Source: a virus
DNA length: 43,862 bases
IMG/VR virus record: IMGVR_UViG_3300047359_000869
Location: 1 to 43,862 of that record
Direction: 5' to 3' (one strand)
Positions 753-20,770 of this stretch are shown piece by piece. How positions within the stretch are numbered: the first letter of the stretch is position 1; each line of letters opens with the position of its first letter. The notes beneath the pieces are model-generated. The model made no database searches. It was not told the DNA's origin and was given only the letters and a program-made list of their open reading frames with translations. The position numbers and the translations under genes are program-made.

Positions 753-1872
753 AGCATTTCAAGACTTTTACAAAGAACAATCTATTAAGCATATGCTTCT
801 AGTTGAGCATAACAATGAATTACTGAGCCCTCCGTTTGCTACAGAAAAATGTAAAGACTACAGTAAAGTATTTTACAAAGGTGATTATATTAATTTAGAT
901 TTGCTACCAGCAACTAGCAAGACTAATGCTGTTGCACAAATTAAAGATAGCAGTTGGTTTCTTCCATATGGTATTTGGGACGAATTCAATACTGTTGTAG
1001 AACTACGTGGCACAACACCTTACTATCATACATTACCATTCAAAGGTAAAGGACAATTTTATAGTGTAGCAACAAACGGAAAGACTGCATTTAGTTTTCC
1101 ATTAGGATATGAAGATACAAACTTTGGATTGTACATTGACGGAATAATTAAAACACATGAGTTGCCTATTAAAGGTAAAAAGTTACATATGGGAACTGTG
1201 TACTGCAACGGACGATATTGGAGTATGCCTAGAGGCGATGAACCTGGTTACAATACGCTTTTAAGTTTTGATGGTGAACAATATCAAAGTTATGAATTAG
1301 ATGTTGATCCTAATATTACTAGAAAGTACACAGACATTATTGTTAAAGGTAATACATTATACAGTTTACCGTTTGGAGAAACTAAAGGACTTAACACTAT
1401 TGTAGAGTTTGATACAGAAACAAATACTGCTACGTATCATACTATCGACGGAGTAGACTTTGCTAAAAAATATAACTGCGGTGTATTACTAGGTGATAAA
1501 ATTGTTGCTGTACCTTACGGTGATGAACATGCTAATGATAGTAACTGGGGATTAGTATTTGATACAGTTACAAAAGAAACTACACAGTTTGATATCAAAT
1601 TAGACTTTGGTGGCAAATATAGATTTAGATGTGGTATTGAATACAAAGGCAATGCGTACTTCTTTCCAAGCGGAACACCTAGTTGTCCTGTTATAGTAAT
1701 TGACGATCAAGGGTATATTGTTAAAGACGAAACTTTCAAAGGTTTAATTTTTGGTAGACCTATTATACACAAAGACTACATAAATGTATTAGGATACCAC
1801 ATCGAAACACAGGAACATTTTATCTTTGTTTTTGGTGATAATTTGAAGGTAAAAGAGGTAACCAAAATATGA
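745..1872 (+). CDS. Beta-propeller-like repeat protein
   Basis: This 375-residue protein has the same repeat family as the gene before it. Six clear copies of the P-x-G core occur: FLPYGIWDEFNT, FSFPLGYEDTNFG, MPRGDEPGYNTLLSFDG, LPFGETKGLNTIVEFD, VPYGDEHANDSNWGLVFD and FFPSGTPSCPVIVID. A degenerate copy, PPFATEK, lies near the N-terminus and a last strand (HFIFVFGD) at the C-terminus, so seven or eight blades and a closed propeller are likely. The start is ATG with GGAT eight bases upstream, and it overlaps the previous gene by 8 bases. Its stop overlaps the ATG of the following radical SAM gene (ATGA), so the two are probably translated together. The pairing suggests that the propeller presents or binds something the radical SAM enzyme needs; this is inference. 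No paralogue is visible elsewhere in the window. Confidence 0.8.
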   Translation: MYKAFQDFYKEQSIKHMLLVEHNNELLSPPFATEKCKDYSKVFYKGDYINLDLLPATSKTNAVAQIKDSSWFLPYGIWDEFNTVVELRGTTPYYHTLPFKGKGQFYSVATNGKTAFSFPLGYEDTNFGLYIDGIIKTHELPIKGKKLHMGTVYCNGRYWSMPRGDEPGYNTLLSFDGEQYQSYELDVDPNITRKYTDIIVKGNTLYSLPFGETKGLNTIVEFDTETNTATYHTIDGVDFAKKYNCGVLLGDKIVAVPYGDEHANDSNWGLVFDTVTKETTQFDIKLDFGGKYRFRCGIEYKGNAYFFPSGTPSCPVIVIDDQGYIVKDETFKGLIFGRPIIHKDYINVLGYHIETQEHFIFVFGDNLKVKEVTKI

Positions 1873-2993
1873 AATGTTTTGCTCCTTGGCATAGTATTAC
1901 AGTACGCTTTAATGGTGATATTGTACCCTGCTGTGTGTATAAAGAACGCTATGGTAACGTGCTTAAAACACCTTTAAACACCGTCTTAGACAGCGTTACA
2001 GCGTCATACACAAAGGATAGCTTCCGTAATGGAGTGTTACCGCCAGCTTGTCAACAATGCACGTTAAAAGAAGAATCTGCAGGTCATAGCAGACGTTTAT
2101 TCTTCCGTGATACACTCAATCCAATGTTGGAAAATACCAATTACGACTACTCAAAAAACTTCACAGATATCTACTTTTTGGAGTTTAATATGAGTAATAT
2201 TTGTAATTTGAAATGTCGTATGTGTAGTGGACTTGCTTCTAGTGCCTGGGTTAAAGATGATATCAAATTACATAATTTGGACAGCAATTATCAACGCCCT
2301 GTTGACAGTCCAGAGTTTGGTTACACAAATAAAAGCGAACAAATTATAGAACGGTTGTTTGAAGATCCTACTCCATTTATGAACTTACAATATCTAAGCA
2401 TACTAGGTGGGGAACCTTACATGGAACCTGCTAACAAAATAATATTACAAAAGTTTATTGATCTTGGTATCGCTAAAAACATTACACTTGACTGGACTAC
2501 TAATGGTACTATTGTAGATGAGGAAGTACATGAACTTGCAAAACAGTTTGGTCAAACTAAATGGAATATAAGTGTTGAAGGTACTGAAGGACTATACGAA
2601 TATATTAGAGGTGGTAAAAACTTTACGTTTGCAGAACTAAATGAAAATTTAAAACAGTTTAATTTTGCAACTAGAGTAATTATTACTACAACTGTTATGG
2701 CATATAACATTGCACACTTAGATAAACTGTATTGGTGGTTTGAAGAAAATAAACAAGACAACTGGGAAATATATTTTACAAATGTTGTAGTAACACCGCC
2801 TTACTTAAATCCGCAAGTTTTACCTAACAGCGTATTAGACAAAATTGATTTTAGATTTCCTAATATAAAGTACACTAGCAAAGACGATAGTAAACTGCTA
2901 GACACGTTTGTTAAGTATACAAAAGATTTAGATAAAATTAGAAACGAAAACGTATTAGACTATTGTCCAGAACTTAGTTTTTTATTTAAGTAA
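1869..2993 (+). CDS. Radical SAM enzyme with N-terminal twitch-type Cys cluster
   Basis: The 374-residue protein has the radical SAM motif CNLKCRMC (C112, C116, C119), which binds the [4Fe-4S] cluster that cleaves S-adenosylmethionine, and a GGEP SAM-binding motif at 180-183. Before the barrel, C3, C21-C22, C61 and C64 form the N-terminal cysteine set of the twitch-domain-containing radical SAM class, predicted to hold an auxiliary iron-sulfur cluster. It shares N...P-W, P-x-C-x-x-C and the SV/SID...EYIR stretch with the genes at 4720, 13781 and 14958, and ends in a related tail (YCPEL). The start overlaps the propeller gene by 4 bases (ATGA). Its 3' end overlaps the convergent small ORF by 34 bases. 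The substrate is unknown; members with auxiliary clusters often act on peptides or sugars. Confidence 0.9.
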   Translation: MKCFAPWHSITVRFNGDIVPCCVYKERYGNVLKTPLNTVLDSVTASYTKDSFRNGVLPPACQQCTLKEESAGHSRRLFFRDTLNPMLENTNYDYSKNFTDIYFLEFNMSNICNLKCRMCSGLASSAWVKDDIKLHNLDSNYQRPVDSPEFGYTNKSEQIIERLFEDPTPFMNLQYLSILGGEPYMEPANKIILQKFIDLGIAKNITLDWTTNGTIVDEEVHELAKQFGQTKWNISVEGTEGLYEYIRGGKNFTFAELNENLKQFNFATRVIITTTVMAYNIAHLDKLYWWFEENKQDNWEIYFTNVVVTPPYLNPQVLPNSVLDKIDFRFPNIKYTSKDDSKLLDTFVKYTKDLDKIRNENVLDYCPELSFLFK

Positions 2994-3166
2994 GCCTCTT
3001 CGAATCCCTCTTCCCGTGCATATAAAGGAGCACCATCACTTCCTGCTCTCCACAGCCTTTTAAAATAACTGTCAGCTGATTGTAATGCTGTTTCATCGCT
3101 ACAATCAATATGTCCTTTAACCATCCAAAACAGTCGGTATGCTTCTTTCAGTTCTGCTTCGTCCAT
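2960..3166 (-). CDS. Small protein of unknown function, GC-richer than its neighbours
   Basis: A 68-residue ORF begins with MDEAELKEAYRLFWMV. I chose ATG at 3166 because AAGGA lies eight bases upstream; a longer reading from 3196 has no better ribosome-binding site. The protein is acidic, amphipathic and probably helical, with no membrane segment and a single cysteine. It overlaps the 3' end of the upstream radical SAM gene by 50 bases in another frame and the convergent radical SAM gene by 34 bases. Counting bases, 3001-3060 and 3121-3180 are about 50% G+C, while nearby 3541-3600 is about 25%, so the segment may have a separate origin. I do not recognise the family. Confidence 0.55.
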   Translation of the reverse strand: MDEAELKEAYRLFWMVKGHIDCSDETALQSADSYFKRLWRAGSDGAPLYAREEGFEEAYLNKKLSSGQ

Positions 3167-4076
3167 TGCCACGGTCCTTCCGTATGTATATATCACTCAA
3201 ACATCCGCATACTGTTTTTCCGCATGTAATAGGCTCAGTTGGTAATCTATATCGTTCCATATTTCCTATTGGGCCACCAAATTGACAATCTGCTCTATAT
3301 AGGTTACCCCACATATCTACGTTTACTCCGTCAATGCCTGCCCAACACTTCCAACCAGCAAAGTTATTCATTCCTGATATAATTAAATCGTTTGCTGTAA
3401 TAGGTTGTTCGTCAAGTTTAAGATCGCCACGATGTAGTTTATCATCGTTAACTTCTCTAGCAAATGGCCACTGGCCAATTATTTGTTTTTGTTCGTTACT
3501 ATAAGGAGATACAGTATTAGTAATATGCTCTCCGTCTGTTTTATCTAAAATAACTTTAGGATATATTGACATCCTATCTGTTCTATCATATAGGTATTGT
3601 GCTATTTTATACTGTTCGTCAAATGCTTCTTTGCCTGGTGGCAACATTAAATTAACAATAATTTCACAAGTTGTTGCATTTGCAATTTCTACAAAGTGTG
3701 ATGCACTTGAATATTCTGGGTGGTAACTTATAAGCATACCATCAGTATATGGATCTATCTTTTTAAAGTATTCAACTGATTGACTTCCGTTTGTAACAAA
3801 ACTAAATGTGTGTCCTTGTTCTTTAACAAGTTTTGCAAGATCAATAAAGTGTTTCCAATACGTAGGCTCTCCGCCACTAAGTCTATAACAAATTTCTTTA
3901 GCAGGTACTTTAAAATTCTCAACAAAGTTTTTAACAGTTTCCCATTTAGGTTGTCCTGTTGTTCCATTGTGCAAATGGTCTGGACAATAAGAACACCGAT
4001 AGTTACACTTATTGCTTAAGGTCCAACTAACTAAGAACCAATCTTCTTTTGCTTTATCTTGATAGTCTAGTTTCAT
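3117..4076 (-). CDS. Radical SAM enzyme with C-terminal SPASM/twitch-like cysteines
   Basis: The 319-residue protein carries the CNYRCSYC motif (C24, C28, C31) and GGEP at 68-71. A C-terminal set, C244 (GWKCWAG), C264, C285, C290 and C292 (CGKTVCGC), resembles a SPASM or twitch extension holding an auxiliary iron-sulfur cluster. It is a paralogue of the 319-residue enzyme at 7924-8883: both have VSW before the first cysteine and a GW-x-C-x-AG motif late in the protein. The start codon overlaps the stop of the preceding oxygenase-like gene (ATGA). The last ~24 residues after CLSDI are Arg-rich, unlike the paralogue, and run through the ribosome-binding site and start of the small downstream ORF, so the C-terminus may have been rewritten when that ORF arrived. 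The substrate is unknown. Confidence 0.9.
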   Translation of the reverse strand: MKLDYQDKAKEDWFLVSWTLSNKCNYRCSYCPDHLHNGTTGQPKWETVKNFVENFKVPAKEICYRLSGGEPTYWKHFIDLAKLVKEQGHTFSFVTNGSQSVEYFKKIDPYTDGMLISYHPEYSSASHFVEIANATTCEIIVNLMLPPGKEAFDEQYKIAQYLYDRTDRMSIYPKVILDKTDGEHITNTVSPYSNEQKQIIGQWPFAREVNDDKLHRGDLKLDEQPITANDLIISGMNNFAGWKCWAGIDGVNVDMWGNLYRADCQFGGPIGNMERYRLPTEPITCGKTVCGCLSDIYIRKDRGNGRSRTERSIPTVLDG

Positions 4077-4720
4077 TCGCTCATGCTATTCTTAATAATT
4101 AAATCGTGTGTACGTTGATTTAGTTTAACTGTAAGGATTAATGAATGTAGTCCGTTAGTATAACTAAACACACTATGCTCTTTTTGGAAGTTAATAAAAT
4201 GTACATATTCTGGATCAGGATAAATTAGTTTCTTATCTAGTATATGTGCATAGTTCTCAGGTTGGCATTTACCAAACGTAACTAGTAATCTAAAGTACTC
4301 CGGACCTACTCCTGGAAAATCTCTATGTGGTGGAAAGAATCCTCCCTCATCAACTCTAAGTAAATGTACACGACCAATGTCAGGTGCAAATACATCTACA
4401 AGACTTGCAAGTTGCGGAATGTTCTTGTATACTTCAGTTGGTGTTGTAAAGTTTTCTTCTTTCATTTCAACATCGTGGTAGCGTTGCATATGGCCAAAGC
4501 TATTCAAATGATAGTTGTCCATTACATCACCTGTATGACTTGTTACAGGTAAACCCCAACGGTTGTTGTGTGTATCTTTTTTTGCGTTATAAGGACACCA
4601 ATTATCTTCAAACTGTTCTAACTGTTGTACAAGCTCATGCCCGTTAACTTTTAGTTTTAGTTTTACCATGTCGCCTAAATTACATAGGCTATTCCATAGT
4701 AAGGCTCTTTCGGTATTCAT
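4073..4720 (-). CDS. 2-oxoglutarate/Fe(II) oxygenase-like protein
   Basis: The 215-residue protein has an HxD motif (H132-R-D134, in GGFFPPHRDFPG), R144 in FRLLVTFG and a distal histidine H182 in EHSVFSYTNG. This is the order of iron ligands in double-stranded beta-helix oxygenases, closest to the aspartyl/asparaginyl beta-hydroxylase type. The usual arginine that binds 2-oxoglutarate after the distal His and Asn is not obvious (GLHSLILTV follows), so the co-substrate is uncertain. The start has AGGAG ten bases upstream, and its ATG overlaps the stop of the radical SAM gene by one base (TAATG). It sits between two radical SAM genes, which suggests that hydroxylation belongs to the same pathway. 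The enzyme class is likely; the substrate is unknown. Confidence 0.65.
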   Translation of the reverse strand: MNTERALLWNSLCNLGDMVKLKLKVNGHELVQQLEQFEDNWCPYNAKKDTHNNRWGLPVTSHTGDVMDNYHLNSFGHMQRYHDVEMKEENFTTPTEVYKNIPQLASLVDVFAPDIGRVHLLRVDEGGFFPPHRDFPGVGPEYFRLLVTFGKCQPENYAHILDKKLIYPDPEYVHFINFQKEHSVFSYTNGLHSLILTVKLNQRTHDLIIKNSMSE

Positions 4721-6021
4721 TATATGTGTTCTCCTAATTCGGGAAACGTTTTTCTAAAGTCCGTTCCACGTTGTTCATCTAATACTCTTAAATAATCTTG
4801 TAGTTGAGGTAGTTTATTTGACCAATCTTCGCTCATCATATATTCTATTAATCCTTCAAATCTTCTTTTGCCCATTGCATGTTCGTTCCAAGCACTATTA
4901 AATTTTTGGCTATCAATAAACCGTTCTATATTATCTTTAGCGAACTGTTTATATGCTTGTGGTAGCACACGTATATTTAAGTATGACGGAAAGTATACTA
5001 AGTGTGTACCTATAAGCCCACCACCAAACGGCAATACGTTAATATTATTAAACTGCTGTTGGATTTTCCACTCTGCAAGTTCATGTATATATGCTACATT
5101 TAGCAACTGTACTGCACAGGCCATGTTAACTTTGATATTAGGTCCTGCTTTATCTAATTTATGTAAGTTTGTACTTATATCTTTCCATTTACTTGGATAG
5201 CGTATATAATCATTCTTATCTCCATACGCATCAATACTAAAATTAAATGTTACTTCCTCAAAATGTTTCCACAATGCAAATAACTTATCAGGTAATTCTA
5301 ATCCATTACTGTTATAACGTATACAAATATGTTTACTAAATCCGTTATCAACCATAAACTCTAATATAGCATAATGCTCTGGTATTAGTAGAGGTTCGCC
5401 TCCTGCAAAATACAATTCTTTAATATGTTGTGCTTGGTCTTTCATAGAATCAAGGAAGGATCCTTTCTTGTACCAAGTATAATCAAAGTCTTGATCCCAA
5501 CTTTGTTCTGCAATTAAGTCTTTGTTTTTGTATTTAGGTTTTTGTAGTTTCCATTCTTTAATCCAACTGCTTGAATCATGTGGACTACACATTACGCACT
5601 TTAATTGGCACAAGTTACCAAGGCGTAAATCAAAGTAAGGAATGTTAACAGGTAAGTTACCGTCTGCGTCTGTTTGTTCTACAATACTATCAATGTCTAA
5701 ACGCTTTTCCCACACTTTAGTTTCCCATTGACGCTTACTTACAATACCTTTTTCTTCTTCTGCAAAACATTTACGACAACTTGCAGGTACTTGGTCATTT
5801 AGCATTTGCAATCTTGTGTTACGCATATGCTCACTATTCCATACTTCTTCAATAGTATGGTCACGCATATTCATAGCAATGCCGTCTTTCTTAACAAGCC
5901 CTACTGTTTTGTCATCTTCTATCCCTGCACCTGATGCATTAGCAGTACAACAAACTCTAACGTCACCGTTAGGTCGTGTTGCTAAATGTATCCAAGGTAA
6001 AGGACAAAATGTTTTACTCAT
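4720..6021 (-). CDS. Radical SAM enzyme with N-terminal twitch domain
   Basis: I place the start at 6021 (MSKTFCPLPW) because AAAGG lies seven bases upstream; ATGs at 6027 and 6036 are in frame but badly spaced. The resulting 433-residue protein has twitch cysteines C6, C24-C25, C82 and C85, then the radical SAM motif CQLKCVMC (C138, C142, C145) and GGEP at 207-210. The segments FCPLPWIHLATRPNGD, TIEEVWNSE and FSIDAYG closely match the enzyme at 13781-14974, and both end in a TFPEL tail. N-terminal-twitch radical SAM proteins have an auxiliary cluster ahead of, not behind, the barrel; their reactions are largely unassigned. It overlaps the preceding radical SAM gene by 8 bases in the same operon. 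Confidence 0.92.
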   Translation of the reverse strand: MSKTFCPLPWIHLATRPNGDVRVCCTANASGAGIEDDKTVGLVKKDGIAMNMRDHTIEEVWNSEHMRNTRLQMLNDQVPASCRKCFAEEEKGIVSKRQWETKVWEKRLDIDSIVEQTDADGNLPVNIPYFDLRLGNLCQLKCVMCSPHDSSSWIKEWKLQKPKYKNKDLIAEQSWDQDFDYTWYKKGSFLDSMKDQAQHIKELYFAGGEPLLIPEHYAILEFMVDNGFSKHICIRYNSNGLELPDKLFALWKHFEEVTFNFSIDAYGDKNDYIRYPSKWKDISTNLHKLDKAGPNIKVNMACAVQLLNVAYIHELAEWKIQQQFNNINVLPFGGGLIGTHLVYFPSYLNIRVLPQAYKQFAKDNIERFIDSQKFNSAWNEHAMGKRRFEGLIEYMMSEDWSNKLPQLQDYLRVLDEQRGTDFRKTFPELGEHI

Positions 6022-7012
6022 GCTCATGCCTTTCAAACTGTGCGTTTAGTTTATCAAACGTTCCGCATTGTTTTGAACATTCTTTAAGTCCAGTACTAGT
6101 CCAACAACTACTAATCTTGTTAAAAAAGCCGTTGTCAAAAATCTCTTCAAATGAATGATTGTGTAAATTAGGATATTCTTTAATTTTTGTCATGTAATCT
6201 ATTCTTGAATGAGAGTGTTGTGGTAACCATTCTAAATCTAACCAACAACAAGGACTAACGTTTCCGTTTGCGGCAATATACATTTGTTTATCTTGAACTG
6301 CTTTACAATTAATAGTTGGCATAGATTCGTTCCTAGCTTTTTCTGCTGGAGCAATCATTTCTAAACTCTTTTGTGATGGTAATAGTGTATGCGTAATATT
6401 ATAGTCGTCATCAATTACATCTAACTTACCATCTCTAAAACGTGTAGTATGCTTAATACTAAATCCTTTAAAGCCTAAGTCTTTACTTAATTGTTCACAT
6501 GCACTTACTTGGTGTTCGTTATGTTTGAATACAAGCATATCCCATCTTGCATCTCCACCTGCTTCAATAAATGCTTGTGCGTTTTCTAAAATTTTCTCAT
6601 AGTTTGTACTAATTCTATATAACGCATGAGTATCTCCTAGTCCGTCAATACCAAATACAATTTTTACTCCTACATCTGCAAGACTTTTAAACCAGTCAGT
6701 AGTTCTTGCACTTCCGTTAGTGTGCATTTGCAAGGTCATAAAAGGATTGTGCTTACGTAGGTATTGCATTATGCCTAGTGTGTCTTTGGCCATAATAGGA
6801 TCGCCTAAGTTACCACACATATTTAGAAACTTTAATTGTTGTACAAAACTTACAGGAAACCATTTTGTAAATTGTTGGTAACTAATTTCTGTAAGATCTA
6901 AACTGTCAAGTTCAGGTCCACCATTGATCCTTCTTGGACACATAGGACATCTTGCTTGGCACCTTGTTGTAACTTCTAAATGTATTGATGTAATATCTTC
7001 GTAGTTATACAT
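6014..7012 (-). CDS. Radical SAM/SPASM-like enzyme
   Basis: The 332-residue protein starts with AGGA seven bases before the ATG. It carries CQARCPMC (C18, C22, C25) close to the N-terminus. The GGEP motif is replaced by CGNLGDP at 66-72, a variant seen in SPASM-type radical SAM proteins. The C-terminal half has cysteines in NCKAV, a NGNVSPCCW hairpin and a final CW...CSKQC set, the pattern of a SPASM domain with auxiliary iron-sulfur clusters. The N-G-x-V-x-x-C-C hairpin is typical of that domain. It lies between the methyltransferase and a twitch radical SAM gene and overlaps both by 8 bases. Known SPASM members modify peptides or aminoglycosides; the substrate here is not evident. Confidence 0.9.
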   Translation of the reverse strand: MYNYEDITSIHLEVTTRCQARCPMCPRRINGGPELDSLDLTEISYQQFTKWFPVSFVQQLKFLNMCGNLGDPIMAKDTLGIMQYLRKHNPFMTLQMHTNGSARTTDWFKSLADVGVKIVFGIDGLGDTHALYRISTNYEKILENAQAFIEAGGDARWDMLVFKHNEHQVSACEQLSKDLGFKGFSIKHTTRFRDGKLDVIDDDYNITHTLLPSQKSLEMIAPAEKARNESMPTINCKAVQDKQMYIAANGNVSPCCWLDLEWLPQHSHSRIDYMTKIKEYPNLHNHSFEEIFDNGFFNKISSCWTSTGLKECSKQCGTFDKLNAQFERHEHE

Positions 7013-7616
7013 CTTTTGTTCCTATAATCATAAATCGTTTATATTTTGTTAATTCTAATTCTTTTGCAACTTCAATTTTTAACTTTGATTTCTTTTCAAA
7101 CTCGCCAAGCGTTTCACTACAGTTAACATGTTCTTCTAACTCGGTGTAGTTATTAGATTGTAAAATTATCTTTGTACCCTTTGGTATATTATTTAACCAT
7201 TGCATATATTGTTCTTGTGTAATATGTTCGCAACTTGTATTAATAACAAAATAAGGACTAGTTGTATATTCGTAAGTACACATATCTGCTGTAACTGCTT
7301 CAAACATACCTTCCATCTCTTGACGCTTGTTTACTGTACTTGCAATTTCTTTACAAACAGGATCAAGGTCTACACTTGTAATATGTTTAATACCAATATC
7401 ACTATTGAATAACATATTTGCTAACACACCATTCCAACCGCCATGTATAACAACACTAGCATTACTAATTGTTTTAGCCTTTGCTTGTAGAATATCAACT
7501 AACCAAGTTTTAGATTCTAACTGTCCGCCCCAAAAACTTTCTAAGGTACGGCTTCTGTCATCGCTGTTACGAATAGCGTCCATCCAAAACTTAATATCTT
7601 TAATATCTATTTTCAT
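7005..7616 (-). CDS. Class I SAM-dependent methyltransferase-like protein
   Basis: The 203-residue protein has the fold marks of class I methyltransferases. Residues 55-63 (VVIHGGWNG) match the glycine-rich SAM loop after a beta strand, 81-86 (SVDLDP) match the acidic residue that binds the ribose, and an acidic/hydrophobic pair follows at AD111 and YFVINTSCEH. The glycine-rich loop is unusual (HGGWNG rather than D-x-G-x-G), so activity on SAM is likely but not certain. The gene overlaps the membrane-protein gene by 4 bases and the next radical SAM gene by 8, so all are probably made from one transcript. The substrate could be a sugar, peptide or small molecule; nothing in the sequence decides. 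Confidence 0.72.
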   Translation of the reverse strand: MKIDIKDIKFWMDAIRNSDDRSRTLESFWGGQLESKTWLVDILQAKAKTISNASVVIHGGWNGVLANMLFNSDIGIKHITSVDLDPVCKEIASTVNKRQEMEGMFEAVTADMCTYEYTTSPYFVINTSCEHITQEQYMQWLNNIPKGTKIILQSNNYTELEEHVNCSETLGEFEKKSKLKIEVAKELELTKYKRFMIIGTKDV

Positions 7617-9535: not shown

Positions 9536-10436
9536 GTGGTGCTATCTCGTTAGCTAGTTCCTCTTGTATTAATCTATCTACATGACAGTTATCTGGGAAC
9601 CTGTCGCTGTCTGTCATAATTTTAATTACTTTTTCGTATTCGTCAACTATAGTTTTAAACTCTGTATCTTCACCTTCTGGTATATGAGGAATATTAAGTT
9701 CAGGTTTTTGTCTAGCAAACATACGTAAACTCTCTGCCGCATTTTCTGTTAGGTCTGGTCTACGTCTACGAACATTTTCTGCTGTACCCCAACTACTAAT
9801 TAATGGTACTGGTCTTCCTATTATTTTATCCATCCACTCACGATGTACATATTTTATAAAAGTATACTTACTAATATCTTTAGGTAGTTTACCCCAACCT
9901 TCAATTACTAACCAAGGTATACCTGTTTGCTCGTAAATTGCTTGTGCGCCATCTAATGCTATTGTAAGTAATTCATCACTTATCTCTTTAATGCTATTAG
10001 CATTTTTAATTTTATCTTCGCTTTGATCGTAATACTTTTGCAAGTCATATAGTCCTGCTTCATCTGGCCATAAACTTCTTTTTAAATCTCTACAAGGCTC
10101 AGTAAGCATCCATATGATTAAATCAGGTTTATAAAATACTGGACTAGTAAAACAAGGTGCAAGACCTAATGCTTCTTCAACTTTAAAAATTGCTTCAAAG
10201 TTACCTGATCCACCAAACGCATAGTTGGCAGTAGCATGACCCATTTGATCTAAGTTGTAACCAAATCCTGGCCATACAACTTGAAAAGGCTTAGGTGCAG
10301 AACCTTCTAAATATTTGTCTTTATTCCACGGTTGAAATAGTTCTGGGTGTTTAGGATTTGCACAAGCAGGTCCTGGAATAATAGTTCCCCACTCACCTAG
10401 TGCATTACTGTCACCAACAATTAAAATTTTCTTCAT
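9528..10436 (-). CDS. SGNH/GDSL hydrolase-like protein
   Basis: The 302-residue protein shows the blocks of the SGNH superfamily: block I VGDSNALGEWG at the N-terminus with the nucleophile serine at position 10, a GGSGN block at 75-79 and a C-terminal D282-N-C-H285 giving the Asp-His pair. Such enzymes are esterases or acetyl/acyl transferases acting on carbohydrates and lipids. There is no signal peptide, so action is cytoplasmic or on assembled particles. The start has GGAA about seven bases upstream and overlaps the nucleotide-sugar dehydrogenase stop by 4 bases. With a sugar dehydrogenase before it and a glycosyltransferase after it, removing or adding an acyl group on a glycan is the likeliest role; this is inference. 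Confidence 0.75.
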   Translation of the reverse strand: MKKILIVGDSNALGEWGTIIPGPACANPKHPELFQPWNKDKYLEGSAPKPFQVVWPGFGYNLDQMGHATANYAFGGSGNFEAIFKVEEALGLAPCFTSPVFYKPDLIIWMLTEPCRDLKRSLWPDEAGLYDLQKYYDQSEDKIKNANSIKEISDELLTIALDGAQAIYEQTGIPWLVIEGWGKLPKDISKYTFIKYVHREWMDKIIGRPVPLISSWGTAENVRRRRPDLTENAAESLRMFARQKPELNIPHIPEGEDTEFKTIVDEYEKVIKIMTDSDRFPDNCHVDRLIQEELANEIAPHV

Positions 10437-11605
10437 CGTGTGTTTCCATAATGGAATACTTCTAACTTTTTAGACTCGAACTCTCTCCAAGGATCAACTA
10501 CAACACTTCCTTCACTAAGATAACAGTAAAGAGTTGGATGTGCTAATAATGCTACGGCTGTAAAAGGACCACGTTGTGGACTAGCCATTGGATCAACTTC
10601 AATACAATGATAGCCTGCTTCTTTACAATAATGTCCTACTAACAAACTATAACTTCCGTCAGTATATGGTACTCCTGGTTTATATGCAATGCCATTTAAC
10701 AAAATAGGTAAAGATCGCTCCTCAGCAATCTTAATCAAATAATTTGCCATATTTTTAGCCTGCACTTCTCTTGCATTCATTATAGCATCAAATATGTCAT
10801 ATTGCAACCCCAAATTTTGAGCCATGTAGCGTAGAGCTATATTATCTCTTGGATGACATGCTCCACCGTCGCCCATTCCTGCTTTCATATAACTTGGACC
10901 CATAATACGCTGATCACTTTTGGCAAGTGCATTAGTTACTACATCAACATTAATGTGTCCTTGCTTTTCTGCAACATCTTGTATCATATTAACTAATCCA
11001 ATTTTTGCACTAATAAATGTATTGTAAAATACTTTGATACATTCGCACTCGTCCCACGTACCAATTTCATAACGTGGATCGTTTTCCATTATAGTTTTGT
11101 AAAAGTCTACTAATTCTTTTGCATCACCTGTAGTACTTCCATCGTCTGTACCAATCATAATCATTTCAGGATTAACCATATCCCAAGCTACTGTACCCAT
11201 AGCAATCAAATAAGGATTATAAACAAATCTAGTATTAGTTACTAGTGGTGCAAATTCTCTACGTACTGTGCCTGGTAATACTGTACTAATTAATACAAGT
11301 AATTGATCTTTATTCATATGCATGTTTGCTTCACGTATGCAATCAATTACAATGTCGTATCCAAAGTCTTTAGGTTCTAAATGAGCCGTAGGTGCTTTGC
11401 CATCATAGTCTGGATGATGTGGAGTAGGTACTGCAATGAATACAATATTTCTATCCTTAACAGCCTCTTTGATACTAGAACAAACTGTTACTTTGTCGCT
11501 CTTAACATTAGCAACATCATACCCTGTTACATCATTCCCCTTTTCGGCAATAACTTCTGCACAAGGTAACCCAAGTTTTCCTATACCAATAAATCCAATC
11601 TTCAC
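10433..11605 (-). CDS. Nucleotide-sugar (UDP-glucose/GDP-mannose family) dehydrogenase
   Basis: I start at GTG 11605 (MKIGFIGIGKLGLP) because GGAG lies six bases upstream; an in-frame TTG at 11617 would overlap that site. The 390-residue protein begins with a GxGxxG NAD-binding loop. It continues through the family's central domain (VFYNTFISAKIG) to a catalytic cysteine, C250, in GGACHPRD, corresponding to the GGxCxPKD of UDP-glucose dehydrogenase relatives. These enzymes oxidise a nucleotide sugar twice to the uronic acid, using NAD. Which sugar is used cannot be told. The gene heads the operon that runs to 2960 and is preceded by a late-promoter-like box. It supplies a sugar donor that the neighbouring glycosyltransferases could use. 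Confidence 0.85.
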   Translation of the reverse strand: MKIGFIGIGKLGLPCAEVIAEKGNDVTGYDVANVKSDKVTVCSSIKEAVKDRNIVFIAVPTPHHPDYDGKAPTAHLEPKDFGYDIVIDCIREANMHMNKDQLLVLISTVLPGTVRREFAPLVTNTRFVYNPYLIAMGTVAWDMVNPEMIMIGTDDGSTTGDAKELVDFYKTIMENDPRYEIGTWDECECIKVFYNTFISAKIGLVNMIQDVAEKQGHINVDVVTNALAKSDQRIMGPSYMKAGMGDGGACHPRDNIALRYMAQNLGLQYDIFDAIMNAREVQAKNMANYLIKIAEERSLPILLNGIAYKPGVPYTDGSYSLLVGHYCKEAGYHCIEVDPMASPQRGPFTAVALLAHPTLYCYLSEGSVVVDPWREFESKKLEVFHYGNTR

Positions 11606-11631
11606 TATGATCTCCAATCATTATATACGTA

Positions 11632-11639
11632 CATAAATA
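11632..11639 (+). promoter_or_regulatory. Putative T4-type late promoter for the rightward gene pair
   Basis: CATAAATA on the plus strand lies 28 bases before the ATG at 11667 and starts the divergent plus-strand pair. A start of transcription near 11645 would give a leader of about 22 bases containing GGAAA. It mirrors the minus-strand box, so both directions may be served by late-type RNA polymerase. Confidence 0.5.
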
Positions 11640-11645
11640 TAGTAG

Positions 11646-11653
11646 TATTTATG
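11646..11653 (-). promoter_or_regulatory. Putative T4-type late promoter for the leftward operon
   Basis: CATAAATA on the minus strand resembles the T4 late promoter TATAAATA at the -10 position. It is 41 bases from the GTG of the nucleotide-sugar dehydrogenase gene. It faces an identical box on the other strand across six bases, forming one inverted repeat (11632-11653). There is no -35 requirement in late promoters. Not proven by transcript data. Confidence 0.5.
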
Positions 11654-11666
11654 GAAAGTTAAACAC

Positions 11667-12953
11667 ATGAAGTTGATTCAAGACTCTATTGCAAAGAATG
11701 ATTATGTAGCTCGACCGCACACTACGCAGTCTATTGAGAAATTAAAAGAAGCTATTAGTGCCGGAAAACACAAGTTAATTGACGCAAGTGCAATACATTG
11801 TTTAATTCAATATCCTGATTGGCATACTGATCTTAACTTGTTTAGATTTGTAAAACCCAAAGCATTAAAACAATTAAAAAACGATCCAAAGTGTTTTTTC
11901 CTTTTTGATACAAGTACAGAAGGCTTTAGTACAATACACGATGTTCCATACTTTGATGTTTTATATTATAGTTGCGAACAAGCAGGTGTTGATCCTGAAA
12001 AAGTTATATTTTTTAGTTCTAACATGTATGACGAAAGTAACATTGTACGTTTTAATATGGAACACAATAAACAAAAATCTATTAAGGTTGTTACGTTTAA
12101 TAACTTTGAATCAATGCTGTTTGGTATAGCCGGTGCTGAAAGTATTGGCGATAGTGTACGACAACAGATTGACGGCGAGACTTGTGACCAGTATGTTGAA
12201 AGACGCATGAAACAAGAAAAACAAGAAGTTGCACAACGCTATAAGGGTAAAATATTTTTAAGTTTAAGTCGTGTTAATAGACCGCACCGTACATTGAGTG
12301 CTTACGAAATTTTTCATAGTGATTTATACTATCACGGATTAGTAAGTCATGATTTGTTTAAAAAGAAAACATTAAAACATTGGCATAGTTATCAAATGCC
12401 AACTGGTTGTAATATATCAGGAAGTGATATTAAAAAGTGGCAGAAGAACGTCCTTCCGCTTACAATCGATACTGATGACTTTATAACTAATCATGCTATG
12501 AGTCTAAGTAGTTACTTGCACCAACAAACATTATTTCAAATAGTAAACGAAACGTTTGCAGAAAATTGGCAAGGTACTAGTTTGTTCTGGAGTGAAAAAA
12601 CTTTTAGAAGTATATATCACTTACAACCTTTCTTAATATTTGGACAACGCCATGCTAATCTAAAACTACAAGATTACGGCTATAAGATCTTTGATAACAA
12701 CTTTGATTATAGCTTTGACGAAGAACACGATACATATAAACGTTGGTCTAAACTTAGAGTAGAAGTTGAAAAACATGTAAATAGAATATCAGCTTTGCCT
12801 ATTACTAAACAGATTGACTGGCGTTGGAGACAAGCTGATCTACTAGCACACAACTTAAAAAATATGGTAGACGAGAATCATACTAAGAGTCAAATGACCG
12901 GCTTAGTTAAATACATGGTAGAGAAAATAAATGAGCAAGAAACTAATACATAA
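11667..12953 (+). CDS. Probable glycosyltransferase-like protein
   Basis: The 428-residue protein has two recognisable parts. Around 195-235 the segment KIFLSLSRVNRPHRT followed by HGLVS resembles an N-R-x-x-R-P-H-R motif. Around 307-361 a conserved block includes FWSEKTFRSIYHLQPFLIFG, then KIFDNNFDYSFDEEHD and KRW. That E-K-T-F ... P-F ... G ... F-D ... Y/F-D-E-x-x-D pattern recurs in phage and bacterial proteins resembling sugar-nucleotide-dependent transferases. There is no DxD or signal peptide, so the assignment rests on pattern memory. It overlaps the next gene by 23 bases, so the pair is probably translated together. Confidence 0.5.
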   Translation: MKLIQDSIAKNDYVARPHTTQSIEKLKEAISAGKHKLIDASAIHCLIQYPDWHTDLNLFRFVKPKALKQLKNDPKCFFLFDTSTEGFSTIHDVPYFDVLYYSCEQAGVDPEKVIFFSSNMYDESNIVRFNMEHNKQKSIKVVTFNNFESMLFGIAGAESIGDSVRQQIDGETCDQYVERRMKQEKQEVAQRYKGKIFLSLSRVNRPHRTLSAYEIFHSDLYYHGLVSHDLFKKKTLKHWHSYQMPTGCNISGSDIKKWQKNVLPLTIDTDDFITNHAMSLSSYLHQQTLFQIVNETFAENWQGTSLFWSEKTFRSIYHLQPFLIFGQRHANLKLQDYGYKIFDNNFDYSFDEEHDTYKRWSKLRVEVEKHVNRISALPITKQIDWRWRQADLLAHNLKNMVDENHTKSQMTGLVKYMVEKINEQETNT

Positions 12954-13803
12954 TACTCCAAAGAGAATTTTTACCTTTGGTTGTAGCTTTACAGGTTATC
13001 AATGGGGTACATGGGCTAATATTATAGGTGTAGAATTTCCCGAAGCAGAGTTTAGAAACTTTGGTCGTAGTGGTGCAGGTAATCAGTATATACACAACAT
13101 GATTATGCAGGCTGATAATGTATACAACTTTACACACGAGGATCTAGTTATTGTACAATGGACTAATGTATGTAGAGAAGATAGATATCTACCTGAAAAA
13201 GACGGATGGCTAGTACCTGGTAATATATTTTCACAAGGTGACTATAATCAAAACTTTATTGAAAACTACTTTAGCGAGTTTGGATCGTATGTTAGAGACT
13301 TTGCACTAATTAAAAGTGCCCACCAATTACTTAAACATCGTTGCAATCATCATATGATTAAGATGTTAGATTTTGAATATTCAAATCAATGGGACTTAAA
13401 ACCAAACCCAGACTTAGATTTACAAACACTTACACATATGTATGAAGAAAGTATAGATCAAATACTACCTAGCTTTTATGCTACGCTGTGGAATAATAAC
13501 TTAGAAGCTAAAATATCAAAAGATAAAAAAATTGTACATAAACTTTTCCATGACGGACATCCTACTCCACTTGAACACTACGACTACTTAAAGAACGTAT
13601 TCAAACATGACTGGAGTGATAAAACTGACAAAGTAGTAGGTGCTACACAAAAGAAATGGGTTAAGTTAATGACAAGTGCATGTTTAGGTCAACCTGGACA
13701 GGGCTTTAGCTTGTATGAAATGAAACAGCGTTGGTTGGATATGTTAAAGTACGAAACTATTATGCGTCCTAATACGCAAATTAATCCGTTAATACGTCAA
13801 TAA
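12931..13803 (+). CDS. SGNH hydrolase-like protein
   Basis: The 290-residue protein has block I TFGCSFTGYQWGTW, with Ser19 as nucleophile in a GCS variant of GDS. GRSGAGN at 45-51 is the oxyanion-type glycine/asparagine block, and D208-G-H210-PTPLEHYDYL is the C-terminal Asp-His block. The family includes carbohydrate esterases and acyltransferases. The start has GAGA about seven bases upstream. It differs in sequence from the SGNH protein at 9528-10436 and is not a recent duplicate. The gene ends tail to tail with the radical SAM gene at 13781, overlapping it by 23 bases. Confidence 0.68.
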   Translation: MSKKLIHNTPKRIFTFGCSFTGYQWGTWANIIGVEFPEAEFRNFGRSGAGNQYIHNMIMQADNVYNFTHEDLVIVQWTNVCREDRYLPEKDGWLVPGNIFSQGDYNQNFIENYFSEFGSYVRDFALIKSAHQLLKHRCNHHMIKMLDFEYSNQWDLKPNPDLDLQTLTHMYEESIDQILPSFYATLWNNNLEAKISKDKKIVHKLFHDGHPTPLEHYDYLKNVFKHDWSDKTDKVVGATQKKWVKLMTSACLGQPGQGFSLYEMKQRWLDMLKYETIMRPNTQINPLIRQ

Positions 13804-14974
13804 GTTCTGGAAACGTTTCGTCAAAAGAACGATTACGTATTTTATCAAAATACATATTTTTAGATTTAAACAAATCATTTGCACTTTGGTCAAACGTTGA
13901 CTTTTGCAAGTAATCAATAACACCATTTACATATCTTAAATGTTCTGTATGCGTTACTGTATTTGCGTATGCTTGTAACTTATCTATTGCTGTGTGTCTT
14001 TGTTCATCTGTTAGTGCATTAAAACTATAATGATTAGGTTCAACAATATTGTAAAGCGTACTATTGTTTACATCAAATCCTTTACCAGACATGTATTCTA
14101 AAAAGTCTACAAGTGTTAGTACATTAAATGCACTTACTACACAATTAAAACTAATAATTACATGCGGACTTTCTTCTTTAATAATTTTTAAGTTCTGTTC
14201 TATAGTTGGCCAGTCAGTACCTTCTCTAATATACTCACCTCTGTTTCCATAGCCGTCAATACTTGCACGTACTTCAACGTGTTTAAAATTATTCCAATAC
14301 TCTGTAATACTTTTCTTCTTAAAAAATAAATTACTTAAATTACTATTATATTGCAGTACAGCATCAGTCTTTTTATTTTCAATCAAATAATCTAAAATAT
14401 CATAATGCTTATCTGTAATAAGAGGCTCACCTCCTGCAAAATAATAATCTTGAATGCCTTTGAGGTATGGCTTAAACTGTTCAAAAAGGTTATCGTTGTT
14501 GTCGCCACCTGCAAAAATGTATACAGGTTTATTTTCACCTTGCTTGTTATCTTCTACAGCCCATGTAGAACTGTAAGTACTACTACAGGTTCTGCATTTA
14601 AAATTACAAATATTACTCCAACGCACATCAAAGTATAACAACTTCATTATATCTAACGAACCGTCAAAATTGGTTTCGTCTTTTATACTAATATGTTGTG
14701 CAAATCTATTATTTTGTGCAATTCTATTGCTTTCTAAACCTGCTTCTTCGTGCTTCCAACATTGTGTACACGCACTAGGCTTTTCGTTGTTTAATAATGC
14801 AAGTCTTAATTTTTTATATTCCTCACTATTCCATATTTCTTCAATAGTGTTGTTACGTGTGTTGCCAAGAGGTTGTCGCCAATCGCCTATACAACAAGGA
14901 AGTACGTTGCCGTCTGGATTAGCATAGAAATGAATCCAAGGAAGTATGCAAAATGTATTACTTTCCGCAGTCAT
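13781..14974 (-). CDS. Radical SAM enzyme with N-terminal twitch domain
   Basis: The 397-residue protein opens with FCILPWIHFYANPDGN, with twitch cysteines C9, C27-C28, C69 and C72. The radical SAM motif CNFKCRTC (C123, C127, C130) and GGEP at 181-184 follow, then a SIDGYG segment and a TFPEL tail. It is the closest relative in the window of the enzyme at 4720-6021. The N-terminal cysteine set predicts a second iron-sulfur cluster. AAGG eight bases upstream of the ATG supports the start. It overlaps the upstream radical SAM gene by 17 bases and the convergent SGNH gene by 23. Substrate unknown. Confidence 0.92.
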   Translation of the reverse strand: MTAESNTFCILPWIHFYANPDGNVLPCCIGDWRQPLGNTRNNTIEEIWNSEEYKKLRLALLNNEKPSACTQCWKHEEAGLESNRIAQNNRFAQHISIKDETNFDGSLDIMKLLYFDVRWSNICNFKCRTCSSTYSSTWAVEDNKQGENKPVYIFAGGDNNDNLFEQFKPYLKGIQDYYFAGGEPLITDKHYDILDYLIENKKTDAVLQYNSNLSNLFFKKKSITEYWNNFKHVEVRASIDGYGNRGEYIREGTDWPTIEQNLKIIKEESPHVIISFNCVVSAFNVLTLVDFLEYMSGKGFDVNNSTLYNIVEPNHYSFNALTDEQRHTAIDKLQAYANTVTHTEHLRYVNGVIDYLQKSTFDQSANDLFKSKNMYFDKIRNRSFDETFPELIDVLTD

Positions 14975-16331
14975 TATAAAAGCCTTCTAGTTCTGGAAAA
15001 GTTTCTACCAAGTTACAGTTACGTCTACGATCAAATTCTTTGAACCAGTTATGAAAATCTCTACGTGCTTGTTCTAGTTTACGTGGTTCATAATGTGTTG
15101 TACGCATATACTCTACTACACGCTTAAACTTTTCATATTCTAATCCTGTAAACTTAGTACGGTCGTTATCGTCTTGGTTGTCTTTAATAAATTGTAAATG
15201 TTTTTCCATATACGGCATGAATTCTTCTTTAGGTAAAATGTTCATGTCATATATGCTTGGTTCTTTTAAATGAGGTGTGTCAAATCTAACACGTTGCCAT
15301 TGTGTAGCATTGTCATCACTATTGTATTTTGTACGCCACTCTAGTATTTTTTCTAATAGTTGCGTAAAACTAGTTACACCAAATATATTAAATGTAATCA
15401 TAAACGTTACAGGCCAGTTTGTATTGCTTAGATAATAATCTAAGTTTTGTTCCCATAACTTAATGTCTAAACCAGTACGTGCATATTCTGCTCTTGGTCC
15501 CCAAGTATCAATACTAGTGTACAATTTAAAACTTTTAATCTTACCTTCTGCTTTTAAACGCTTAACTGTTTCAGTTAGCTTTTCAACTAGCTTAGGCTTA
15601 ACACCCATGTTGCTGTTTACTTCAATTTGTATATGTGGCTTAGGATCGTTGTCTAACTTTTCTAACAGTTTCCAAAAACTTTTATGCATTAACGGCTCAC
15701 CACCTGTAATACGCAAAATGTTTAGTGTCTTACTAAGTTCAGGCCACCATTCCCAGAACGCTTTTACGTATGGATTAGTATCTTCGTCTTTTTGTACTTC
15801 AAACCAATCAATGTCTTGCCTATGTGTGCTTGACATGTCGTATGGTCCATGTTGTTTTATTTCGTTCCAGTACCTACTAGAGGCTTTAGGATGACAGTAT
15901 CCACACTTGAAATTACATTCATTACTAAAACTAATTTCAATATACTCAGGATTTACGTTAAAATCCGCCCCTTTTTGTTTTATTTCCGCTACTCTTTCAG
16001 GTGTGTATATACTTGCAGTTTTAATATGTCTATCACTTATAAAGTCTTTGCCCATTGCTTCAATTTTCCAACAGTAACTACAACCGTCTGGTTTATCTCC
16101 ACATAGCATTTGTTTACGTTGTTCTTTTTTCTCAATAGTATTATGTAACGCACTAGGATTGCCTTCTAATTCTTCTAAAGGAATTTTATGCGGAGCAGGA
16201 TGGTAACAACTATGCGTTTCTCCTGTTGCAAGATAGATAGTTGTGTGATGCCATTTTGCTAAACAGAATGTTGGAGAGGTTTCACTCTCAATTTTAGGCA
16301 TTACTGACTTAATTTTTTCTAATTCATTCAT
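14958..16331 (-). CDS. Radical SAM enzyme with variant N-terminal twitch domain
   Basis: The 457-residue protein has N-terminal cysteines C23, C42, C84 and C87, then CNFKCGYC (C139, C143, C146) and GGEP at 210-213. Unlike its relatives the usual CC pair is SC, leaving the four cysteines needed for one auxiliary cluster, so the substitution shows which cysteine of the pair is probably the ligand. It shares the SID...EYAR segment and ends in ETFPEL near the C-terminus. It is the longest of the four twitch enzymes; the extra length is spread through the barrel and C-terminal part. It overlaps both neighbours by 4-17 bases. Substrate unknown. Confidence 0.9.
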   Translation of the reverse strand: MNELEKIKSVMPKIESETSPTFCLAKWHHTTIYLATGETHSCYHPAPHKIPLEELEGNPSALHNTIEKKEQRKQMLCGDKPDGCSYCWKIEAMGKDFISDRHIKTASIYTPERVAEIKQKGADFNVNPEYIEISFSNECNFKCGYCHPKASSRYWNEIKQHGPYDMSSTHRQDIDWFEVQKDEDTNPYVKAFWEWWPELSKTLNILRITGGEPLMHKSFWKLLEKLDNDPKPHIQIEVNSNMGVKPKLVEKLTETVKRLKAEGKIKSFKLYTSIDTWGPRAEYARTGLDIKLWEQNLDYYLSNTNWPVTFMITFNIFGVTSFTQLLEKILEWRTKYNSDDNATQWQRVRFDTPHLKEPSIYDMNILPKEEFMPYMEKHLQFIKDNQDDNDRTKFTGLEYEKFKRVVEYMRTTHYEPRKLEQARRDFHNWFKEFDRRRNCNLVETFPELEGFYNDCGK

Positions 16332-19813: not shown

Positions 19814-19826
19814 ACTAATTCTCCTT

Positions 19827-19849: not shown

Positions 19850-19864
19850 GAAGAAAAGCAAGTC

Positions 19865-20758: not shown

Positions 20759-20770
20759 ATTCTTTTACCT

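Follow-up and report, generated by a model that had tools for sequence, protein, structure and literature searches.

What might a phage do with a dense block of radical SAM (rSAM) genes lying beside the genes of its tail fibres? The window analysed here is the whole stretch of 43,862 nucleotides of IMG/VR record IMGVR_UViG_3300047359_000869, from an aquatic phage, and seven rSAM open reading frames (ORFs) are found in its positions 1869-16331, next to tail-fibre genes. In our reading, to which we give a probability of roughly 40%, they belong to a soluble, late-expressed decoration cassette of a phage of the T4 superfamily, perhaps acting on the tail fibres. Phage rSAM clusters as such are already known, and the new part is a core set of genes which our sequence comparisons show within the cassette: the predicted GT-A-like proteins 16328 and 8864, the rSAMs 7924, 6014 and 4720, and the methyltransferase-like 7005 (genes are named by their first coordinate; Table 1).

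Table 1. Coordinates of the cassette genes, promoter-like motifs and flanking fibre block in the window.
Feature	Position	Strand	Basis or occurrence
rSAM, N-terminal twitch, accessory	1869..2993	+	NF033640 245 bits; 7/11 maps
rSAM, 319 aa, conserved late cysteines, accessory	3117..4076	-	PF04055; 8/11 maps
Aspartyl/asparaginyl hydroxylase-like	4073..4720	-	PF05118 in 1/7 family members, not the window protein
Core rSAM, N-terminal twitch	4720..6036	-	NF033640 427 bits
Core rSAM, C-terminal SPASM, CGNLGDP	6014..7012	-	PF04055, PF13186
Core methyltransferase-like, NTSCEH motif	7005..7616	-	weak Methyltransf_25, E 0.056; family alignment with bacterial loci
Small protein, TM-like segment	7613..7927	-	4/11 maps
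Core rSAM, twitch-like C-terminus	7924..8883	-	PF04055; model
Core GT-A-like, short form	8864..9535	-	same family as 16328-17212
SGNH-hydrolase-like	9528..10436	-	GDSN motif by eye; no family match
UDP-glucose/nucleotide-sugar dehydrogenase-like	10433..11617	-	PF03721, PF00984; phrog_9148 325 bits
Promoter-like motif ATAAATA	11633..11639	+	upstream of 11667-12953
Promoter-like motif ATAAATA	11646..11652	-	upstream of gene run 11617 to 3117
Recurrent cassette protein, no assigned function	11667..12953	+	recurs in related cassettes
Recurrent cassette protein, SGNH-like by eye	12931..13803	+	recurs in related loci
rSAM, N-terminal twitch, accessory	13781..14974	-	NF033640 386 bits; 5/11 maps
rSAM, N-terminal twitch, adjoins long GT-A-like gene	14958..16331	-	NF033640 328 bits; 10/11 maps
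Core GT-A-like, long form	16328..17212	-	model pLDDT 93.0; GT-A-type fold matches
Recurrent protein, no assigned function	17209..17799	-	recurs in related loci
Putative glycosyltransferase	17796..18629	-	DTD motif by eye; phrog_1903, without assigned function
Putative glycosyltransferase	18622..19470	-	by eye only
Tail-fibre and structural block, candidate substrate	19460..26753	-	tail/virion PHROGs for 20771, 22291, 24102

The seven ORFs called in an earlier sequence-only reading were all recovered at their starts. In the profile search which that reading had proposed, PF04055 matched exactly seven places (E-values 1.7e-14 to 1.2e-6), six of them over the cut-off; 13781 fell below it, yet clearly passed NF033640 (cut-off 170 bits). 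The translations carry C-x3-C-x2-C in all seven, GGEP in six and CGNLGDP in 6014. The proposed division into three architectures also holds. Four rSAMs pass the N-terminal-twitch model NF033640, which 3117, 6014 and 7924 do not reach (26, 54 and 40 bits, respectively); the C-terminal SPASM of 6014 passes PF13186 (26.5 vs 21.5 bits); and late cysteines are conserved in 3117 and 7924, neither of which gave a SPASM match in the profile search. The output for the NCBIfam subfamily model NF033640 names no reaction, and the model does not cover an association of its members with 7924, 6014 and the GT-A-like genes.

Loss of the cysteine motifs in relatives had been named as an observation that would speak against the cassette. 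Of 358 unique viral relatives that passed a score limit and were almost complete in length, 353 retain the three core cysteines and the other five are gapped there. Auxiliary cysteines are conserved in the rSAM alignments; in relatives of 3117, C244, C264, C285 and C290 are present in 23/23 and C292 in 22/22. Relatives of 1869, in contrast, often lack the twitch cysteines (C21 in 2/22, C22 in 12/22) and keep those of the core (23/23). The dN/dS of the seven genes against the related record G003 was 0.06-0.15, and they are under purifying selection. A recent duplication of one rSAM is not favoured, as clustering at 33% identity left the seven in seven families. A near-identical record (G019, 100% identity over three rSAM queries) holds nine PF04055 matches, of which two fall outside the window, beyond its left edge; therefore, the window cuts the cassette short, and the cassette is a block of at least seven rSAM enzymes which continues beyond it.

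The statement that no phage region of such density was known had to be dropped, given two published cases (PMC2853527, PMC5332604) and the 3-12 rSAM genes per record in the 20 related viral records examined here. According to the available text of PMC2853527 (2010), the Campylobacter phages CP220 and CPt10 have 11-12 rSAMs per genome, with five in each cluster of 10-12 genes, reported without a tested function. These phages are, like ours, distantly related to T4, with nucleotide-diphospho-sugar-transferase-like genes adjoining their rSAMs. They differ in the amidinotransferase that is part of their cluster, for which no Pfam match was obtained among the 20 window ORFs scanned (33 to 18629) or in the best 25 of 38 families in 64 related-cassette proteins. 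In a profile search of a CP220 stretch (L241), the matches were limited to 6014-type relatives (83-92 bits) and weak rS38-type ones, with none for the core genes 7924 and 4720 or the GT-A-like family. The second case, the marine T4-like genome TARA_ERS488813_N000010, is similar to ours in having many rSAMs, 12 in its case; the available part of PMC5332604 discusses it with iron-sulphur metabolism.

A parallel in position is the host recognition cluster of pelagimyophages, described in the accessible portion of PMC7029224 as a variable region that adjoins the tail fibres and contains glycosyltransferases and rSAM cassettes, and defined as lying between VrlC and neck gp14. In the related record G001, one side of the cassette has fibres, a giant protein and a baseplate wedge, and the other flank has an HNH endonuclease, an ATPase and an exonuclease among nine proteins scanned, none of them named as a neck protein and several without assigned function. 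Unlike pelagimyophages, the best 12 of 60 baseplate relatives listed are from jumbo phages. Pelagibacter phage Mosig (MT647606) has distant 6014-type (83 bits), 7005-type (76 bits) and 4073-type hydroxylase (182 bits) proteins. Among 50,697 phage records searched at E 1e-3, 7924 and the long GT-A-like protein had no match. In phage-record searches with other cassette proteins, 14958 matched two distant Vibrio phage records, and 6014 three Campylobacter phage records and Mosig. Homologues scattered singly had been named as a sign against one system: close homologues do cluster, whereas distant relatives of 4720 (21-26% identity) occur at one place per record in 21 phage records, 20 of them from Vibrio phages.

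Recurrence of the same neighbours had been set as the test of one system, and it was observed for 7924, 7005, 6014 and 4720, which share a strand in each of the 11 mapped records. These records were recruited with 4720 or 7924 and hand-picked from 20, and two of them represent almost the same virus. The order of the four genes is the same in ten maps, G014 having 6014 and 7005 swapped. The GT-A-like family is present in 10/11 (none in G018, a single gene in G011). When loci were recruited by 14958, a GT-A-like gene was found in 80/80 (sample not dereplicated); in the 53 with 9 kb downstream, 7924 was present in 43, 6014 in 42, 7005 in 35 and 4720 in 29, so that 10 were without 7924 and 24 without 4720. 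Among 42 loci recruited by 7924, four had no 4720 and six no 6014 within 5 kb. In 82 non-redundant loci, the GT-A-like gene and 7924 were at most two genes apart in 51 of 52 co-occurrences. The claim that all seven enzymes serve one product is not supported by the accessory rSAMs 1869, 3117, 13781 and 14958, which are each present in only some maps (Table 1); in record G264 the 14958-type protein is the sole NF033640 protein. One system thus fits the core, as far as gene content can tell, and not all seven rSAMs. Strict coevolution of the core genes was also considered and failed for 7924 within phages, where distance correlations were r = 0.04 with 6014 and 0.09 with 4720, against 0.67 for 6014 with 4720 and 0.46-0.70 in bacteria.

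Core members were shown, by profile matches, to sit together in bacterial genomes too, mostly in Bdellovibrionota groups. Of 22 bacterial loci, most of which carry titles of such groups, 15 contain all three core rSAMs; identities to the bacterial proteins are 50-57% for 7924, 43-48% for 4720 and 35-40% for 6014. Across 235 genomes of one bacterial phylum (five chosen ones being left out; the co-occurrence P-values ignore phylogeny, and the profiles were partly built from such loci), 7924 occurred in 11, 4720 in nine (9/9 with 7924), 6014 in 11 (10/11 with 7924; limit of 500 bits, set after seeing a gap from 508 to 342 bits) and the GT-A-like gene in ten (8/10 with 7924). No GT-A-like match was obtained in three of the 16 bacterial genomes that have 7924. 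In one bacterial protein, a single ORF of 635 aa, a 6014-type paralogue is fused to a GT-A-like domain, and the core 6014 copy of that genome lies elsewhere. Other fusions join the 13781 type to the 14958 type (L194) and, in an ORF flanked by 4720 and 7924, one GT-A-like domain to another; this last ORF is on the same contig as L312, which may derive from a phage. That predatory bacteria, too, carry part of the cassette as a set speaks more for a chemical decoration pathway, so far undescribed, than for random cargo, and the core probably forms one pathway. Among the literature matches listed, this core was not found described, subscription journals and preprints lying outside the scope of that search.

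With respect to chemistry, the glycosyltransferase-like and sugar-dehydrogenase neighbours pointed out earlier were supported by GT-A-type fold matches, GT2 neighbours in bacteria and the Pfam matches of 10433. The model of 16328 matched GT-A folds in Foldseek at E 8e-5 but with a TM of about 0.3-0.4; VIA Z reached 9.2, with most values under 8 and an rmsd of 4.4 over 212 residues. As for a DxD-type metal motif, D63 is nearly invariant and D65 invariant in the family, whose sequence search of solved structures gave only matches of E 0.19 or worse. The 7924 model (pLDDT 90.1) resembles MoaA, BlsE and SkfB, and also EpeE and anSME. The 4073 protein aligned at 99.7% in hhalign, in thin alignments, with two Asp_Arg_Hydrox-annotated Mosig proteins, and had no relatives in a sequence search of solved structures. 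In the fibre block, PHROG matches of the genes not named in Table 1 were weak or of no assigned function.

The motif ATAAATA is common to cassette and fibre genes, with fibre-block copies at 22281 and 26769, and therefore suggests late expression. T4 late promoters read TATAAATA; full TATAAATA was found 0 times against 8.6 expected. For ATAAATA, 69 of 100 copies lie at most 80 nt upstream of an ORF, compared with 8-20% for six permuted motifs. Sigma-70-like promoters (80 found vs 89.8 expected) and terminators (8 vs 9.0) gave no signal in positions 1-20000 of the window.

In the decoration pathway that we favour, the gene run 11617 to 3117 would be transcribed late in infection from the same kind of promoter as the fibre genes. 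An activated sugar may be supplied with the help of the dehydrogenase; the rSAMs would cut S-adenosylmethionine and abstract hydrogen from carbons that are otherwise inert, in an acceptor that would be either a sugar or the side chain of a peptide; the auxiliary clusters would help them to complete the change; and the GT-A-like proteins would attach the sugar. Accessory, exchangeable genes around the core include the four other rSAMs and the Asp/Asn-hydroxylase-like, nucleotide-sugar dehydrogenase, SGNH-like and further putative transferase genes. The acceptor, the least certain step, would most likely be a cytosolic phage protein, with the neighbouring tail fibres as best guess; that the target is a fibre or another virion protein is put forward tentatively. 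A modified fibre surface would tune adhesion or hide the fibres from degradation or recognition. If the virion is the target, tail fibres carry chemistry invisible in sequence, a point that matters when host ranges are predicted from metagenomes. In any case, the recurrent core, its co-occurrence in bacteria and the fusion among relatives turn unexplained cargo into a defined, assayable gene set.

A broader proposal would have aquatic phages and predatory bacteria share this pathway, three rSAMs and two GT-A-like transferases providing proteins of adhesion or of the surface with a new, carbon-radical-derived and glycosylated modification and so tailoring phage tail fibres post-translationally. 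We consider it somewhat unlikely. Bdellovibrio has fibre-like adhesins. No papers on Bdellovibrio rSAMs together with adhesins were found in the literature, and the available text of PMC12619734 has glycosyltransferases and not the word 'radical'. Since fibre-block profiles matched only one of 22 bacterial loci (L312), a target in the fibres leaves the bacterial copies unexplained. The bacterial context does not name the product either, because families besides GT2 (15 of 99 neighbours, the commonest class, a frequency given without background control) are scattered, with 1-3 of 99 proteins each.

Instead of the virion, the cassette could remodel a host surface glycan (LPS or capsule) and block superinfection or re-adsorption, as proposed in the consulted portion of PMC7029224 for the glycosyltransferases of pelagimyophage host recognition clusters. 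The nucleotide-sugar dehydrogenase, the GT-A-type fold, the GT2 neighbours in bacteria and, among the matches listed, epimerase and GDP-mannose-dehydratase-like matches in related cassettes agree with this. However, in a simple hydropathy scan only 10 of 348 cassette proteins had a TM-like segment, one each, which leaves no sign of a multi-span flippase or polymerase among them; late expression and the Asp/Asn-hydroxylase-like proteins, which point to a peptide, also argue against it, and we hold it to be rather doubtful. It is unlikely that the rSAMs are auxiliary metabolic genes with no relation to each other, carried as cargo of a variable region. PMC2853527, in its available text, suggests as much for CP220, whose cluster it takes as a likely non-essential, interchangeable module of possible advantage to the host cell, and the accessory rSAMs in 5-10 of 11 maps, the 7924 distances and the single distant relatives in Vibrio phages agree; against this, the core stays together in all 11 maps and co-occurs in bacterial genomes, an rSAM is fused to a GT-A-like domain, and the cysteines are intact.

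A cluster in which SPASM/twitch rSAMs mature a precursor peptide (RiPP), perhaps antibacterial, would suit these architectures and the likeness of the 7924 model to SkfB, EpeE and anSME as well as to BlsE and MoaA. The overlapping genes leave little room for a precursor, none of three frames of 15-59 codons outside genes in positions 1-27000 of the window being an evident one, though it may lie at a distance, and no multi-span protein that could export a peptide was seen, so that we regard this as very unlikely. Least probable of all is a modification of nucleic acids or nucleotides, queuosine-like or viperin-like, given that the 3117 scores (viperin NF038283 50.4 bits at best, QueE 32 bits) lie far below the cut-offs (180 and 206 bits) and that the motif and neighbourhood shared with the fibres, the SPASM/twitch clusters and the GT-A-like partners point elsewhere. 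A minus-strand frame that starts at 3124 was followed over 48 codons with no stop and is, by eye, unlike the protein of relatives at that place.

The seven radical SAM (rSAM) ORFs which the sequence-only reading had placed at 1869, 3117, 4720, 6014, 7924, 13781 and 14958 were correctly positioned, and a PF04055 (radical SAM) scan of the window, a viral record of 43,862 bases, recovered those seven and no others. Their division into three architectures also held, with four N-terminal-twitch proteins (NF033640), one C-terminal SPASM protein and two proteins of 319 residues with late cysteines. Loss of the cysteine motifs in relatives, named as a ground for rejection, was rare: of 358 unique relatives from viruses, 353 kept the core cysteines. 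The auxiliary cysteines C11, C29, C30, C87 and C90 of 4720 were retained in all 56 of its viral relatives, and C260, C280, C301 and C306 of 7924 in all 83. ORF 1869 was the exception, with C21 present in 2/22 and C22 in 12/22 viral relatives. Given that the twitch cysteines of the 1869-2993 relatives were often missing (e.g., CC read as DG) and the core motif was kept, their sequences suggest that the auxiliary cluster has been lost or altered. Against record G003, the dN/dS of the seven rSAMs ranged from 0.056 to 0.150.

The rSAM density had been considered to be without phage precedent, which must be corrected. The Campylobacter phages CP220 and CPt10 are described as having one five-rSAM cluster each and 11–12 rSAMs per genome, termed highly unusual (PMC2853527), a T4-like marine genome as having 12 rSAM genes (PMC5332604), and pelagimyophages as having a single variable region where rSAM cassettes are found along with fibers and glycosyltransferases (PMC7029224). 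Therefore, this kind of cluster was already known. Among 20 related viral records, a non-random sample because they were recruited by 4720 or 7924, PF04055 matches numbered 3–12 per record; the record with 12 (G010) had the 11 listed within 15016-32472. A second set of 16 records gave 1–12 NF033640 matches each, of which the number alone is informative, given that recruitment by NF033640 proteins guarantees presence. The cassette is truncated by the window, since G019, a record matching it at 100% across three rSAM queries and reaching further left, holds nine rSAM matches, two of them beyond the left edge of the window (G019 5195-7340, locus L133).

The recurrence of neighbors, which had been put forward as support for one system, was found in the gene maps of 11 records, in which rSAMs 7924, 6014 and 4720 and the methyltransferase-like gene 7005 occurred together on one strand; these records include two nearly identical viruses (G000 and G019). 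The order 7924-7005-6014-4720 was present in 10 of the maps, sometimes with inserted genes (six in G018), while in G014 6014 and 7005 were swapped and an additional rSAM was inserted. The GT-A-like family, represented in the window by a long (16328) and a short (8864) form, appeared in 10/11 maps, with both forms in nine. In a sample recruited by 14958, all 80 loci carried a GT-A-like gene; among the 53 with at least 9 kb downstream, 7924 was present in 43, 6014 in 42, 7005 in 35 and 4720 in 29, and 48/53 had a member of the fiber block or of its two adjoining putative transferase genes. When 7924 was used for recruitment, 42 loci with 4.5 kb downstream had 7005 in 42, 4720 in 38 and 6014 in 36. 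Within 82 non-redundant loci out of 204, close same-strand neighbors were GT-A-like and 7924 (51/52 co-occurrences), 7005 and 6014 (51/55), and GT-A-like and 14958 (49/53). Locus L238 represents the simple end, with 14958 and GT-A-like genes adjoining fibers and one NF033640 match in its record. Scattering of single homologs, the other ground for rejection, was seen in part, as distant lone relatives of 4720 in Vibrio phages, and is opposed by the grouped recurrence of the core genes. No core carrier was found among the phage isolates of the collection searched. In addition, one product for all seven rSAMs, as first proposed, is unsupported; the distance test within phages failed for 7924, which is compatible with exchange of this gene among them.

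The core was also found in bacterial genomes. A species-genome collection scanned once with an N-twitch alignment yielded 154 relatives. The best 80 of these, at 73 loci, were retained, and 54 of the loci bore titles of Bdellovibrio-, Bacteriovorax-, Halobacteriovorax- or Oligoflexia-type. A strong 4720-type protein was encoded at 22 loci, and all three core rSAMs were present at 15 of them; some of the contigs concerned (L290, L274, L296) are hundreds of kilobases long. Identities to the window proteins were 50–57% (7924), 43–48% (4720) and 35–40% (6014). We then surveyed 240 genomes from the phylum of the L290 genome (Bdellovibrionota, judging from its title) and found 7924 in 16, 4720 in 14 (all with 7924), 6014 above 500 bits in 15 (14 with 7924; 17 genomes matched at the preset limit, the 500-bit limit being adopted afterwards) and GT-A-like in 15 (13 with 7924). 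Excluding five hand-picked genomes, overlaps with 7924 were 9/9, 10/11 and 8/10 for 4720, 6014 and GT-A-like, respectively, about 0.5 being expected (P 1e-15 to 3.5e-11), and that of 4720 with GT-A-like was 6/9 (P 8e-8), values which ignore phylogeny and come from profiles partly built from such loci. The bacterial genomes G021-G024 show an expansion, with 29–45 PF04055 matches each and numerous N-twitch types at the loci examined. Locus L255 (Gammaproteobacteria MED685 contig), phage or bacterial, held ten rSAM-type ORFs together with GT-A-like and 7005-type genes and the three core rSAMs in ~21 kb. In L312 (Bdellovibrionales SI034_bin15) core genes adjoin phage-type fiber-block genes on a bacterial-titled contig, possibly a prophage or a mis-binned phage. 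Loci L243, L246 and L247 (titled Rhodobacteraceae, Rickettsiales and Pelagibacter) have fiber-block genes, a GT-A-like gene and several N-twitch rSAMs, and are probably phage sequence in bacterial bins.

The core may instead act on a surface glycan, a less likely reading sustained by its bacterial copies, which lie near GT2 genes and mostly lack fiber-block matches. GT2 (PF00535) matched 15 of 99 dereplicated neighbors at 17 bacterial loci, where non-GT families gave at most three matches each. In the phage cassettes, the families listed (25 of 38) in a scan of 64 proteins from several records included Asp/Asn hydroxylases (PF05118, six proteins), epimerases (three), TauD (two) and a halogenase (one).

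With respect to fusions, a 635-residue bacterial ORF joined a 6014-type rSAM to a GT-A-like domain; this rSAM is a paralog, the core copy of the same genome being on a different contig. A second ORF, which lies between 4720 and 7924, had two fused GT-A-like domains; its contig, that of L312, may be phage-derived. In phage locus L194, 14958 and 13781 formed one 862-residue protein. The model of the long GT-A-like protein (pLDDT 93.0) matched GT-A enzymes, including the PBCV-1 capsid glycosyltransferase, with low TM-scores; the VIA Z was at most 9.2, with an rmsd of 4.4 across 212 residues, and fell below 8 in the majority of rows. The model of 7924 (pLDDT 90.1) matched MoaA, anSME and EpeE, as well as BlsE (Z 16.6, with an rmsd of 3.8 across 265 residues) and SkfB (Z 15.7, with an rmsd of 3.9 across 251). 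By its predicted fold 7924 is a twitch/SPASM-type enzyme, and these matches fit a peptide or a sugar substrate alike.

Most cassette genes overlap on the minus strand and are co-directional with the fiber genes; 745-2993 and 11667-13803 run in the opposite direction. The motif ATAAATA, which from T4 biology we take to be a late promoter, was depleted about five-fold in the window (5 found, 27.5 expected), and four of the five copies lay 22–35 nt upstream of a gene. Across ten records, 69 of 100 copies preceded an ORF by no more than 80 nt, vs. 8–20% for six permutations, and the divergent pair was retained in 5/11 records (G000, G019, G001, G003 and G005). The motif is placed as would be a promoter motif. 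The window had no copy of the full TATAAATA, and no excess of sigma-70-like promoters was seen in 1-20000.

Positions of ATAAATA motifs in the window
Feature	Position	Context
Divergent ATAAATA pair	11633-11652	Opens rSAM gene run
ATAAATA	22281-22287	Upstream of fiber-block gene
ATAAATA	26769-26775	Upstream of fiber-block gene

A simple hydropathy scan of partly overlapping records gave a TM-like segment in 10/348 cassette proteins. Taking together gene content, conservation, grouping, fusions and motif, which are read directly from the genomes, with the predicted folds, the few TM segments and the partners, we favor a decoration pathway of soluble, late-expressed enzymes that is built around the rSAMs and GT-A-like proteins of the core. 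The cassette would be expressed late in infection, sugar transfer would be one step, and radical chemistry would act on one acceptor, conceivably the tail fiber. We give a probability of about 0.75 to the core being one pathway, reduced from 0.8 because one map was reordered, the rSAM::GT fusion involves a paralog and GT-A-like genes are absent from some records; for the same reasons this explanation, and the case for a pathway shared by phages and predators, were slightly lowered.

Between the fiber genes and the baseplate wedge lies a 4,944-residue protein (26772-41606), whose last ~1,000 residues (26772-29771) had no PHROG match. The 12 relatives of the wedge (41620-43773) listed, of 60, were jumbo phages at 32–34% identity, including Sinorhizobium phage Phosso and PBECO4, and therefore the virus is regarded as a T4-superfamily relative of uncertain family.
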